Source: Bizionia sp. M204
Lineage (GTDB): Bacteria; Bacteroidota; Bacteroidia; Flavobacteriales; Flavobacteriaceae
Reading direction: 5' to 3'
DNA length: 64,000 nucleotides
Assembly (NCBI RefSeq): GCF_023205095.1
Contig: NZ_CP046242.1
Coordinates: 1,167,001 to 1,231,000 of the forward strand
Each line of letters begins with the position of its first letter. Position 1 is the first letter of the stretch. The notes under the pieces were generated by a model. That model searched no databases, was not told where the DNA came from, and was given only the letters and a program-made list of their open reading frames with translations. Below, in pieces: positions 41,370 to 45,213 of the stretch. A program made the translations under genes and the position numbers.

Positions 41370-41720
41370 ATGCATAGATTTAAGGATTTAGAAGTATGGA
41401 AAAAAAGTAGATTATTTTGCGTAGAAATTTATTCTATAACATCTAAATTTCCCGAATCGGAGAAATTTGGATTGTCTAATCAATTGCGAAGAGCCTCTGT
41501 TTCCATACCTTCAAATATTGCTGAAGGTTCATCTAGACATTCGAATAAAGATTTTACAAGATTTCTTGAAATAGCAATTGGTTCAGCATACGAAATTGAA
41601 ACACAATTATTAATTGCGTCAGACTTAAATTTCATAAACAAAGTAGATTGAGATAATCTATTAAATAGTTTAGATGCTATTATTAAAATGACCTCTAAAT
41701 TTAAATCAACGCTCAAATAA
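41370..41720 (+). pseudogene. Four-helix-bundle (23S rRNA IVP) protein with an in-frame stop
   Basis: The frame encodes the start of the four-helix-bundle family: FKDLEVWKKSR, FPESEKFGLSNQLRRASVSIPSNIAEGSSR and FLEIAIGSAYEIETQLLIA. It stops at a TGA (41649-41651) after 93 residues. The same frame then continues with DNLLNSLDAIIKMTSKFKS to a TAA at 41718-41720. The full length of about 116 residues fits the family, so the TGA looks like a nonsense change. The truncated protein lacks part of the last helix and may or may not fold. These genes occur as free-standing copies or in 23S rRNA insertions. Confidence 0.75.
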
Positions 41721-41741: not shown

Positions 41742-42452
41742 GTGATCAAATCGTCTAAATTACTCTCCAACAAAACCAACCTCCAAGTCCTATACGAAGA
41801 CAATCACCTAATCATCGTGAACAAACGCGCTGGTGATATTGTTCAAGGTGATAAAACTGGCGACACGCCGTTAAGCGATGTGGTTAAAGACTATATAAAG
41901 GACAAATACAACAAACCTGGCAATGTGTATTTAGGTGTGGTTCATAGATTGGACAGACCAACTACTGGTGTAGTTATGTTTGCTAAAACCAGTAAAGCCT
42001 TGCCACGATTAAATAAACTATTTGCGGAAAGAGGTGCCCATAAAACCTATTGGGCTTTAGTTAAAAAGGCACCTCCAAAACAAATGGATACGTTAATACA
42101 TTGGTTGCGGAAAAACCCGAAGAACAATAAATCCACTGCCTTTCCTAATAAATCTGCTGATAGTAAAAAAGCCATTTTGCAGTATCAGGTGTTAAAACAA
42201 TTAGATAATTACTATTTAGTAGAAGTCGCTTTAGAAACCGGCAGACATCATCAAATTCGTGTGCAATTAGCTAGTATTGGTTGTCCAATAAAAGGCGATT
42301 TAAAATATGGCTTTAACCGAAGTAATCCAGATGGCAGTATTAGTTTACACGCTAGACACTTAAAATTTACGCATCCTGTTTCTCATGATGTTATTGATGT
42401 TACAGCACCTGTACCAAATGATCCCGTTTGGAACGCCTGTTTAGAAGATTAA
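41742..42452 (+). CDS. RluA family pseudouridine synthase
   Basis: The enzyme isomerises uridine to pseudouridine in structured RNA. The 236-residue protein has the catalytic HRLDRPTTGVVMFAKT motif with the essential aspartate, and the later ETGRHHQIRVQLA. No S4 domain precedes it, so it resembles the shorter RluA/RluD-like members with catalytic domain only. The start is a GTG at 41742, since no in-frame ATG precedes the conserved VLYEDNHLIIVNK. Its 3' end overlaps the convergent histidine kinase gene by 12 bases. Confidence 0.9.
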   Translation: MIKSSKLLSNKTNLQVLYEDNHLIIVNKRAGDIVQGDKTGDTPLSDVVKDYIKDKYNKPGNVYLGVVHRLDRPTTGVVMFAKTSKALPRLNKLFAERGAHKTYWALVKKAPPKQMDTLIHWLRKNPKNNKSTAFPNKSADSKKAILQYQVLKQLDNYYLVEVALETGRHHQIRVQLASIGCPIKGDLKYGFNRSNPDGSISLHARHLKFTHPVSHDVIDVTAPVPNDPVWNACLED

Positions 42453-43280
42453 TTTTGTTTCTTCACGATACGGATAGTTAATTTGCAAGCTTGTTCCTTC
42501 CTTAATTTCAGAACGTAAATTAAACGCCGCGTGAATTAAATCTGCACGACTTTTCATATTTAGTAAGCCTGCTCCCTTTTCTGCGGAAGCGATATCAAAA
42601 CCTTTGCCATCATCTTCAATATGAATTATCAGCTGTTGCTCTTGATAATCTAATTTCACCATTAAACTCGCTGCCGATGCATATTTCACGGTATTTGAAA
42701 TAAACTCTTGGATTATTCGGAATAAGATAATGCTATCTTTGGAATTGGTGAATGTGGTTTCATCACCTGTAATTTCTAATTGGGCTGATAATAGCTGTAG
42801 TTTATTTAAACGTGCCACTTCGTTTTCAACCGATTTTTGAAAACCACGATTCACAATTACATCACTATTTAAGGATTTAGAAAGCGCACGCACTTCGCTT
42901 AAACTCTCTTTGACTACATTTTTAGTTTCCGTAAATTGCTCCTTAATGGCTTCCTGAACTTGCATATTCATAATGCTCATTTGCATATTGGCAACAGACA
43001 GTAATTGCCCAATATTATCATGCAATTCCTGACCAATATTTTTAAGTGTTTGTTCCTGAATTTCTATTTGGGTGTTAGAGATTTCTTCTTGAAAGACTTT
43101 CTCGCGTTCAATTTTATCTAAAAGCAGTTTGTTTTTTCGTTTTTGAAAAACGATAAAGAATATAATAATTAAAGCCGTAACAATTATTAAAACAGCTATC
43201 ATGTATAACAATAGGTAACGTTCAGCTGCTGTTGAAACAGCTTGCTTCTGGAATACTATAAAAAGTAACGTTCTAATCAT
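42441..43280 (-). CDS. NarL-type sensor histidine kinase (HisKA_3)
   Basis: The 279-residue kinase has one or two transmembrane helices near the N-terminus (about residues 24-45), a coiled linker, the H-box QELHDNIGQLL with His87, the N-box QEFISNTVKYAS with Asn196, and the G-box DDGKGFD at 223-229. There is no large sensor domain in its own chain. It overlaps the preceding membrane protein gene by 8 bases, so the two probably act together as a split sensor. No response regulator lies beside it. It shares a convergent 12-base overlap with the RluA gene. Confidence 0.88.
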   Translation of the reverse strand: MIRTLLFIVFQKQAVSTAAERYLLLYMIAVLIIVTALIIIFFIVFQKRKNKLLLDKIEREKVFQEEISNTQIEIQEQTLKNIGQELHDNIGQLLSVANMQMSIMNMQVQEAIKEQFTETKNVVKESLSEVRALSKSLNSDVIVNRGFQKSVENEVARLNKLQLLSAQLEITGDETTFTNSKDSIILFRIIQEFISNTVKYASAASLMVKLDYQEQQLIIHIEDDGKGFDIASAEKGAGLLNMKSRADLIHAAFNLRSEIKEGTSLQINYPYREETKLIF

Positions 43281-43977
43281 ATTGTGGTTTGCAAAAAATG
43301 AGAGCTAAAGTAAAAGTTACATACATAAACACATTAGCGAATAAAAATATTTGCCACTTCAGAAACACAAAATTCCAATCTGAAGTAGATGAATATATTT
43401 CAAAAAAGACTAAAGGGGTTGTAATTAACCACCAAATTAACACAATAGCACTAATATAAAAGTTGATGGACTTATAAAAATTTAGAATGGTATCACTATT
43501 TAAAATTTCATAGAGATATAAACTAATAGCAAGAACAACTGCTAAAGTTGACATGATGTGTATAATAGGAATATATCTAGTATAAAGTACTTTATAATCA
43601 ATAATTAAAAAAAGAATAGATAATATGATAAATAACCATTTTGTGAGTTTTAACACATTTTTCAGTCGAATTTCATGAATTATTTTCTGAAAATATAAAA
43701 CGTAAAATATGGTACTGCCCATAACCCAAAAAATAGTTGTAAACCAATAATTCTGTTGAAATATAGTGCCTTTAATAACGTCATAAATATCTAAAAACTT
43801 GAAAAAACTTGGATATCTAAAAGTTAAATCTAGTATAGCGCTATATAAAAGAAACCATATAAAATAAATAACAGCAGTAGATTTATACTTTTTATAAAAG
43901 AATAAACCTGTACCTGCTGCTAAAAATTCAACGGAATGCGTAATTAAGAAATAATTTTGGCTTAAAAACTCATTCAT
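43273..43977 (-). CDS. Multi-span membrane protein, likely kinase partner
   Basis: The 234-residue protein has about seven hydrophobic helices and no recognised catalytic motif, with an N-terminus starting MNEFLSQNYFLITHSVEFLA. Short polar loops and aromatic-rich helices resemble 7TM sensor modules of Bacteroidota kinases. The gene overlaps the histidine kinase by 8 bases (ATGATTAG pattern) and starts 8 bases after the upstream exported protein. I infer that it forms the ligand-sensing part of the kinase complex. Confidence 0.7.
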   Translation of the reverse strand: MNEFLSQNYFLITHSVEFLAAGTGLFFYKKYKSTAVIYFIWFLLYSAILDLTFRYPSFFKFLDIYDVIKGTIFQQNYWFTTIFWVMGSTIFYVLYFQKIIHEIRLKNVLKLTKWLFIILSILFLIIDYKVLYTRYIPIIHIMSTLAVVLAISLYLYEILNSDTILNFYKSINFYISAIVLIWWLITTPLVFFEIYSSTSDWNFVFLKWQIFLFANVFMYVTFTLALIFCKPQYD

Positions 43978-43985
43978 AATTTTGG

Positions 43986-44522
43986 TTATTGTGGATAATT
44001 GGCACTTGGTGGATTTCCAGTGCCTGCCATATTCAAGCCATCACCTCCAGGAATGTCACCATCACCTTCAATCAGAAATGGAATCATACTGGCTTCTGAT
44101 ACATTCTTACGTCCCGTAGGCACTAAAAATACGGTGGCATAACCTGCTTTGCCATTAGTTTCATGTTCGCCATAAGCTGCAAAATAAATGCGGACGCCAT
44201 TCATATCATAGCCTAAATCTTGAGCTTGATTTTCAGCATAGTCCAAATAATCTCTCATGTCTTGAAGAGAAAAATTTGCAGATCTGTTATCTGGTTTACC
44301 AATAGCTGCTTGAATGGCATTGGCTCTTGTGGCGCTCCAATTATCATTTAATTCTTGCGCACGTTCAGGTGAAATAAGACCTGGAGGTGCCTTAAATTTA
44401 CTAGATGACAACGCATCATTATCATTTTCAGCAGATTTAGAATCATCAGTAGTACAACTGAAGCTAATAAACAACATACATACATACATACATACGGATT
44501 TCAAATTAAAATAATTTTTCAT
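43986..44522 (-). CDS. Exported putative lipoprotein, paralogue A of a tandem pair
   Basis: The 178-residue protein has a signal sequence and a possible lipidation Cys23 (FSCTTDD, an imperfect lipobox). Its body has PGLISPERAQELNDNW, then DNRSANFSLQDMRDYLDYAENQ (78-99), LGYDMNGVRIYFAAYG and VFLVPTG. The tail has GDGDIPGGDGLNM (153-165) and ends NYPQ. It aligns along its full body with the neighbour at 44556-45068. I do not know a family name. The signal-peptide region holds a CATA tetranucleotide repeat at DNA level. It is 8 bases upstream of the 7TM gene. Confidence 0.75.
   Translation of the reverse strand: MKNYFNLKSVCMYVCMLFISFSCTTDDSKSAENDNDALSSSKFKAPPGLISPERAQELNDNWSATRANAIQAAIGKPDNRSANFSLQDMRDYLDYAENQAQDLGYDMNGVRIYFAAYGEHETNGKAGYATVFLVPTGRKNVSEASMIPFLIEGDGDIPGGDGLNMAGTGNPPSANYPQ
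44027..44060 (-). repeat. 34-base direct repeat, copy 1
   Basis: These 34 bases are identical to 44597-44630. Both encode the IPGGDGLNM tail segment of the paralogous exported proteins. The surrounding codons differ more. Confidence 0.8.
44475..44495. repeat. CATA tetranucleotide repeat in the signal-peptide codons of paralogue A
   Basis: Five consecutive CATA units plus one C lie within the first 20 codons of the 44522-43986 gene. A change of one unit would shift the frame and switch the protein off, as in phase-variable genes. Confidence 0.75.
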
Positions 44523-44555
44523 AATTTAAATATTTAAGGGTTAATAATTACATGT

Positions 44556-45068
44556 TTATTGGGGATAGTTAGAATTTGGCGGATGACCAGAACTTCCCAT
44601 ATTCAAGCCATCACCTCCAGGAATGTCACCGCCTTGGCGTTTAAAATGAAACGGCATACTAGAACCTTCTGATAAGGCTTGCATACCTGTTGGTACAAAA
44701 AACATGGTGGTGTAACCAACGCCTTCTTCATTGGTATCTGGATAGGCACCTAAATACAAACGCACACCATCCATTCTGTAACCTAATTCATGGGATTGAT
44801 TTTCTGCATATTTTAGGTAATTTCGTACATCTTCTAAAGACCACCAAGCCGATCGGTTGTCTGGACGCATAACAATTTGCTCGCTAATTAATTGGTGTCG
44901 CGTGTTAAAAGCAATGTCTAAAGTTTTAGCTTCTTCGGGTGTAATAACACCTGCAGGCTTAACAATACCTTCCACCACATCATCATGACCAGCGCAATTA
45001 GGACAGAAATAATAAGTAGCTAAAGCGCCAATGATGGCACCAATAATTAATAAGGATACATTTTTCAT
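44556..45068 (-). CDS. Exported or membrane-anchored protein, paralogue B of a tandem pair
   Basis: The 170-residue protein has an N-terminal hydrophobic segment (LLIIGAIIGALATYY) followed by CPNCAG, which could be an anchor with a cysteine pair. The body repeats the pattern of paralogue A: GVITPEEA, DNRSAWWSLEDVRNYLKYAENQ (70-91), LGYRMDGVRLYLGAYP, MFFVPTG, GGDIPGGDGLNM (146-157) and the end NYPQ. It is the first gene of the four-gene minus-strand set. The gap to paralogue A is 33 bases. Its function is unknown. Confidence 0.75.
   Translation of the reverse strand: MKNVSLLIIGAIIGALATYYFCPNCAGHDDVVEGIVKPAGVITPEEAKTLDIAFNTRHQLISEQIVMRPDNRSAWWSLEDVRNYLKYAENQSHELGYRMDGVRLYLGAYPDTNEEGVGYTTMFFVPTGMQALSEGSSMPFHFKRQGGDIPGGDGLNMGSSGHPPNSNYPQ
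44597..44630 (-). repeat. 34-base direct repeat, copy 2
   Basis: This copy is identical to 44027-44060 and lies in the 3' part of paralogue B. The two copies are 570 bases apart and in the same orientation. Confidence 0.8.
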
Positions 45069-45213
45069 TTTTGGTTAGTTTGATTAATAGGTCTTAAAAA
45101 TATAAAAAAGAATGAAATAGACTTTGTTTTTCTAGAAATAAAATGATTTAATTTCATTTTTCAACTATCCTATTTATTGGCGATTAGCCTTCAAACTGTC
45201 AGAAAATTTTCAC

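Follow-up and report, generated by a model that had tools for sequence, protein, structure and literature searches.

A stretch of 64,000 nucleotides from the marine flavobacterium Bizionia sp. M204 (contig NZ_CP046242.1, positions 1,167,001 to 1,231,000; the window) contains a module of four minus-strand genes. They encode two paralogous small proteins (A and B), a stand-alone seven-transmembrane (7TM) protein and a histidine kinase without a sensor domain. We argue, with moderate confidence, that small protein and 7TM protein together are a split, exchangeable, multi-subunit sensor for the two-component kinase. Behind this stands a pattern shown by comparing gene orders and trees: small protein and 7TM protein are inherited together, mostly duplicated together, found before a sensor-less kinase and used with two kinase classes. 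The tight packing that an earlier note on this DNA had described is confirmed by the coordinates of the open reading frames (ORFs). The gaps are 33 and 8 bases, and the 7TM and kinase genes then overlap by 8 bases. The features are as follows (aa, amino acids; TM, transmembrane).

44556..45068, minus strand: small protein A, 170 aa; N-terminal membrane anchor, alpha/beta core domain, Gly-rich linker, conserved C-terminal tail
44559..44630, minus strand: conserved tail of A, residues 147-170, from the conservation profile
43986..44522, minus strand: small protein B, 178 aa; paralogue of A with a lipobox-type signal, core and tail as in A
43989..44060, minus strand: conserved tail of B, residues 155-178
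43273..43977, minus strand: stand-alone 7TM protein, 234 aa, probable receptor or transducer
42441..43280, minus strand: HisKA_3/HATPase_c histidine kinase, 279 aa, single-TM, without sensor domain
43020..43022, minus strand: codon of His87 (ELHDN), putative phospho-acceptor, from the sequence motif
45069..45213, minus strand: 145-base gap between a comM/yifB-type gene and small gene A, probable promoter region

Gene order and pairing

The arrangement is not unique to this genome, the only one in which the earlier note had described it. The 7TM gene follows a small gene in 199 of 200 sampled loci, and the sole miss is at a contig end. These loci form three sets that partly share genomes. A profile built on A and B matches 233 of 397 Flavobacteriaceae genomes, and the first set is 100 regions from the better-scoring matches listed, with the weakest matches unsampled and a few genomes giving two regions. 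A 7TM gene comes after the small gene in 99 of them (in L100, the exception, a contig end lies 134 bases away). Kinases are found in 96; three of the four loci without one are at contig ends (L100, L041, L093), and the absence in L070 is real. The second set is 80 named close-relative loci from a contig search with an alignment query; an earlier single-protein query gave none. Small gene and 7TM gene are in order in 80/80 and the kinase is present in 77/80, all three misses being at contig ends. Across the phylum, 36 of 395 Bacteroidota genomes matched in the small-protein search, and 20 loci were chosen to take in weak matches and other families. The 7TM gene is next in 20/20 and a kinase is found in 18/20, with L263 and L266 as real exceptions. 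Judged from these comparisons, the gene order is far beyond chance.

Exactly one kinase is found in 190 of the 200 loci, none in 9 and two in 1, and there are 1 to 5 7TM genes per locus in 199/200. The single locus with two kinases (L098:7177-9583) reads small protein-7TM-kinase-7TM-kinase. No ORF in the loci scanned matches two of the four profiles. A lone long open frame of 711 aa in the search with divergent 7TM proteins belongs to a very weak match.

The reverse test gives the same pairing. The 7TM profile matches 30/30 module genomes versus 4/30 genomes without a small-protein match, and all four of the latter have a small protein upstream of the 7TM gene. Three of these small proteins are divergent (L301-L303) and one is of a second kind (L307). 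The divergent 7TM profile matches 73/395 Bacteroidota genomes. Twenty distant loci from that search all contain the 7TM gene, L352 included. In 19 of them a small protein is directly upstream in 18 by position (12 are recognized by profile), and a regulator comes after the kinase in 16.

The second kind of small protein is leaderless, and a search of 31 genomes found it in 11. All 11 have a 6- or 7-TM protein next, and in 9 of them a match to the kinase profile comes after that. In L316 and L318 the product of the third gene is instead lipoprotein-like and is itself recognized by the profile of the second kind. Single-sequence comparison gave no homology between second-kind and window small proteins, and the class-1 profile detected 0/11 of them. 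Profile-profile comparison gives 79% (E 1.6e-5) for the small proteins and 97% (E 4.4e-11) for the 7TM proteins, a value that hydrophobic sequence can inflate. This supports distant homology of both second-kind proteins to the window's families. The lipoprotein-like proteins of these two Flavobacterium loci (L316:52-810 and L318:52-801; 37.7 and 34.0 bits) stand in the kinase position, and the 7TM protein there is flanked by leaderless and lipoprotein versions of one domain. Genes that we take to be of a phage-tail-collar family lie near small-protein/7TM pairs in L311, L316, L318 and also L355.

The pair also multiplies and changes partners. Ten genomes have an extra leaderless small protein beside the anchored one, and these extras form one branch (local support 0.95). 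The 7TM proteins downstream of them form one branch (local support 0.989) in 8 of the 10. One of the eight is L121, where the pair stands second and not first. In 48 simple modules the partial correlations of tree distances are 0.28 for small protein and 7TM, 0.50 for small protein and kinase and 0.44 for 7TM and kinase. The signal of the neighboring RluC-type gene was removed, and 500 permutations of each gave at most 0.12-0.14. In L306 the pair is followed by a His_kinase of the LytS type and a regulator of the LytTR type, all above Pfam cut-offs.

These results bear on a different role for the small proteins. One can suppose that they are outputs under kinase control and that the 7TM protein alone is the sensor. 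The small gene comes first, so its expression is likely no weaker than that of the others, and two-component operons often begin with an autoregulated gene. But small proteins and 7TM proteins pair specifically, and the pair occurs beside a kinase of another class (L306) and in places with no kinase next to it. We consider this scenario quite unlikely, and small proteins as a pathway target only are disfavored.

The small proteins and the 7TM protein

A and B are identical at 63 of 134 aligned residues (47%, E 2e-37), and the genome has no further match of this kind. The earlier note had called them full-length paralogues. Paralogues they are, but the alignment spans only residues 38-170 of A and 46-178 of B, and by eye the N-termini differ, being anchor-type in A and lipobox-type in B. 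The nearest named relatives of A are in Bizionia (84% identical). No Pfam family matches the small proteins or the 7TM protein at E<=1, and none of these proteins comes near an NCBIfam cut-off; for the small proteins this agrees with the note's failure to name a family. The same scans of their relatives gave stray weak matches only. NF053772, a BSAP5b pore-forming toxin model, scores 16.1 bits over residues 1-119 only and misses its cut-off of 380. The AlphaFold model of A has an N-terminal helix (2-21), three more helices and two long strands, with a mean predicted local distance difference test (pLDDT) score of 82.9. There is no sequence match in the PDB, and the best structure matches are poor (Foldseek E 0.74, VIA Z 3.2); this does not establish a new fold. 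Second copies with a lipobox-type signal are also found in L145 and, shortened, in L148. The latter is from Bizionia argentinensis (L148:7575-7895), where the second small gene matches B but is a 106-aa frame without the tail. This suggests that B can decay.

A simple hydrophobicity rule sorts 234 small-protein ORFs, from genomes that were not de-duplicated, into 152 with an anchor or signal, 34 with a lipobox and 48 with neither. Six of the 48 are fragments and 4 are apparently shortened lipoproteins, which leaves 38 leaderless. The earlier note had described the proteins as exported. Export holds for the window's A and B, yet it does not define the family.

The note's 7TM protein is predicted by AlphaFold with seven long helices (mean pLDDT 90.8). 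Over its length the model aligns with G-protein-coupled receptors (GPCRs). The top VIA row is 7xp6_R (Z 12.2, root-mean-square deviation 4.1, 220 residues), and helical bundles below about Z 13 may have merely a common arrangement. The best Foldseek E is 0.27 and identity to GPCRs is ~10%. The arrangement is GPCR-like in the model, and the likeness may reflect a common helical arrangement only. Mean Lys+Arg counts are 3.56 (loop 1), 2.19 (loop 3), 2.03 (loop 5) and 1.33 (C-terminus) on one side, and 0.22 (N-terminus), 2.67 (loop 2), 1.01 (loop 4) and 0.38 (loop 6) on the other. The orientation is therefore probably N-out/C-in; only the long loop 2 departs from this. Outer and inner helix halves are near equal in conservation (2.19 and 2.31 bits), which fits a transducer that makes contacts on either side. 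PF07695 (7TMR-DISM) does not match the window's protein. Among 72 relatives it matches one, at E 0.011, and among 24 divergent members none at E<=0.01.

Another explanation makes the 7TM protein a transporter or membrane enzyme, the small protein its substrate or helper, and the kinase a reader of its activity. Transport-coupled kinases are known, and the lack of a family assignment for the 7TM protein is compatible with this. However, a transporter family (PF00375) matches just 1 of the 24 divergent members, weakly (E 9e-4), and the best 50 VIA rows are GPCR-type chains only, though that table merely re-ranks Foldseek matches. We find this explanation very unlikely.

The tail of the small proteins invites a third alternative. 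Its conservation averages 2.85 bits, as high as the core, versus 1.38 bits for the preceding linker. By eye the C-terminus reads GxPPxxNYPQ in the window's branch and is CPPxC-like in many distant members. In a self-signalling scenario the small protein would be a signal precursor or carrier with its tail as the agonist, and the 7TM protein would be a receptor of the peptide type, coupled to the kinase. A conserved tail behind a variable linker, the GPCR-like arrangement and the joint duplication of small-protein/7TM pairs all fit. But this tail is nearly invariant between species of the close branch, in contrast to the pheromones known to determine specificity. No peptidase or exporter family recurs among the 22 most frequent neighbor clusters, as named by eye, and leaderless small proteins exist. 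The tail may also simply belong to the fold, since the model places block 151-160 at pLDDT 86 (block 161-170 is at 68). We give this scenario little credence.

A bolder version is possible but, in our view, rather unlikely. It would be a phylum-wide, so far undescribed receptor class of the Bacteroidota in which a stand-alone GPCR-like 7TM protein is activated by the tail of its cognate small protein as a tethered or released agonist, with several pairs per kinase and another kinase class elsewhere. If true, signalling by such a tail-activated 7TM protein would be the bacterial equivalent of peptide-GPCR signalling, with a phosphorelay as its output.

The kinase, its regulator and the chromosomal site

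The kinase passes the Pfam cut-offs for HisKA_3 (45.8 bits, cut-off 24) and HATPase_c (41.5 bits, cut-off 26.4), and its single hydrophobic stretch lies within residues 15-49. The earlier description of a single-TM HisKA_3 kinase without a sensor domain is therefore correct. It carries ELHDN, presumably the HisKA_3 histidine motif, in which we assume His87 to be the phospho-acceptor by analogy with HisKA_3 kinases. It scores below the cut-offs of the named NCBIfam kinases (UhpB, NarX, LiaS and others), the best being UhpB at 97.8 bits versus 408.

No response regulator adjoins the module in the window. The earlier note had said this, and it is true here and of all 80 named close-relative loci, but not of the family. 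A NarL-type regulator comes directly after the kinase in 25/100 Flavobacteriaceae loci, and a regulator does so in 18/20 phylum-wide loci (that of L258 scores low and may be another type). The divergent module L128 has an adjacent receiver/GerE regulator too. On this distribution the lack of an adjacent regulator is a local trait of this lineage. The simplest history is that the regulator was lost or relocated in the window's branch.

If it was relocated, one candidate is the unlinked NarL-type regulator L142 (G000:3214042-3214677). It is found at >=51% identity in 30/30 module genomes, and 30 comparison genomes have no match above 43% identity. A control regulator (L138) is found in 30/30 and 23/30. 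The comparison genomes were picked for having no small-protein match, and three of them (G011, G018, G026) were later found with divergent pairs. More widely, L142 is in 158 of 397 genomes (E<=1e-48). Of these, 146 have a small-protein match and 12 do not, and L142 is missing from 87 further genomes that have such a match. It is also in genomes whose module has its own regulator (e.g. G090, G302). Its co-absence with the module within two genera (G006 versus G240 and G392; G040 versus G262) is suggestive; G292 and G359 are contrary. L142 tracks lineage at least as much as the module, and as partner regulator it is a candidate only. The regulator of the divergent module L068 was rejected as a guide: its best match in the window's genome is 30% identical and lies beside another kinase. 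About 5.6 kb past the window end (G000:C1:1236653-1236817, L140) is a 256-aa GerE protein with no receiver recognizable by eye.

The rluC-like and panB-like genes of the window adjoin the module in 140 and 132 of the 200 loci. Since these neighbors recur, one chromosomal site has been kept in the window's branch. Between them is a 93-aa frame (41370-41651) that presumably resembles a four-helix-bundle protein of the 23S rRNA intervening-sequence type. Its cluster is present in 14/200 loci, and a longer form (123 aa) is found in L038. Upstream of small gene A, within 45069-45213, an AT-rich block (CATTCTTTTTTATATTTTTA-like) is by eye common to several Bizionia loci and is possibly a promoter. 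Enriched 8-mers ahead of the first gene trace mostly to the last part of the coding region before it, and we therefore propose no binding site.

A proposed split sensor and its relation to known systems

We propose the following mechanism. Small protein and 7TM protein would form a complex at the inner membrane. A, which is anchored, and B, probably a lipoprotein, would use core domain and tail to act on the 7TM protein from the periplasmic side. The state of the 7TM protein would pass to the single TM helix of the kinase, which would phosphorylate a NarL-type regulator located next to it in divergent relatives and elsewhere in this lineage. One kinase could take input from several small-protein/7TM pairs. 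The sensing unit of the earlier note thus survives in the main: it is conserved, and the small and 7TM proteins are likely partners of a sensor-less kinase. Export does not define it.

Several observations weigh against the split sensor. The chief weak point is the leaderless forms. About 38 of 234 homologues are leaderless, yet the core is kept and the C-terminus is similar. As it now stands, one periplasmic mechanism does not account for every family member. Either the domain works on both membrane sides or these proteins exit by another route. The association with a kinase, which the earlier note had tied to the unit, holds for the great majority of loci in all three sets, but pairs without an adjacent kinase occur away from contig ends in L070, L263, L266, L302 and L303. 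In L349 no small protein is seen upstream of the 7TM gene. The trees leave two of the ten extra pairs (L109 and L189) unmatched, and they put L109_t3 in the matched 7TM branch although another small protein precedes it.

The split sensor has parts in common with known systems. NarL-type two-component systems (HisKA_3 with GerE) have the same kinase core, and divergent modules share their adjacent receiver/GerE regulator. Here, however, the kinase has no sensor domain, two unnamed families precede it and the window's regulator is not adjacent. 7TMR-DISM and 7TMR-HD proteins likewise have a seven-helix receptor-like membrane part thought to feed signalling output. As a rule that part is fused to the output, whereas the 7TM protein here is separate. 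Both are named as receptor families in a passage of PMC10653868, which also describes BtsS as a LytS-type kinase with a periplasmic N-terminus whose 7TM part binds pyruvate and gives input to the kinase. BtsS is thus also a 7TM unit that feeds a kinase, but there both are in one protein without a small partner, and in our loci a LytS-type kinase is found in L306 only. The 7TM model resembles GPCRs in helix arrangement and probable orientation, a likeness that may be no more than that of helical bundles (Foldseek E 0.27 at best).

LiaFSR and CpxP-CpxA are two-component systems with accessory input proteins, and they likewise use separate membrane or periplasmic proteins to modulate a kinase. 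Unlike these, the accessory pair here is phylum-wide, multiplied and swapped between kinase classes, and family scans found no sequence relation to accessory proteins of the LiaFSR or CpxP-CpxA type. In a full-text literature search that covered few subscription papers we recognized no description of this module. Accessory proteins of two-component systems and kinase-borne bacterial 7TM receptors are known; what seems to be new is this pairing of two unnamed families.

Two families that have no Pfam or NCBIfam model probably provide the input of sensor-less kinases. If true, this accounts for what such kinases sense through. It would also mean a bacterial 7TM receptor that stands apart from its output, and is hence easy to dissect, in a sensory cassette that is swapped between kinase classes.

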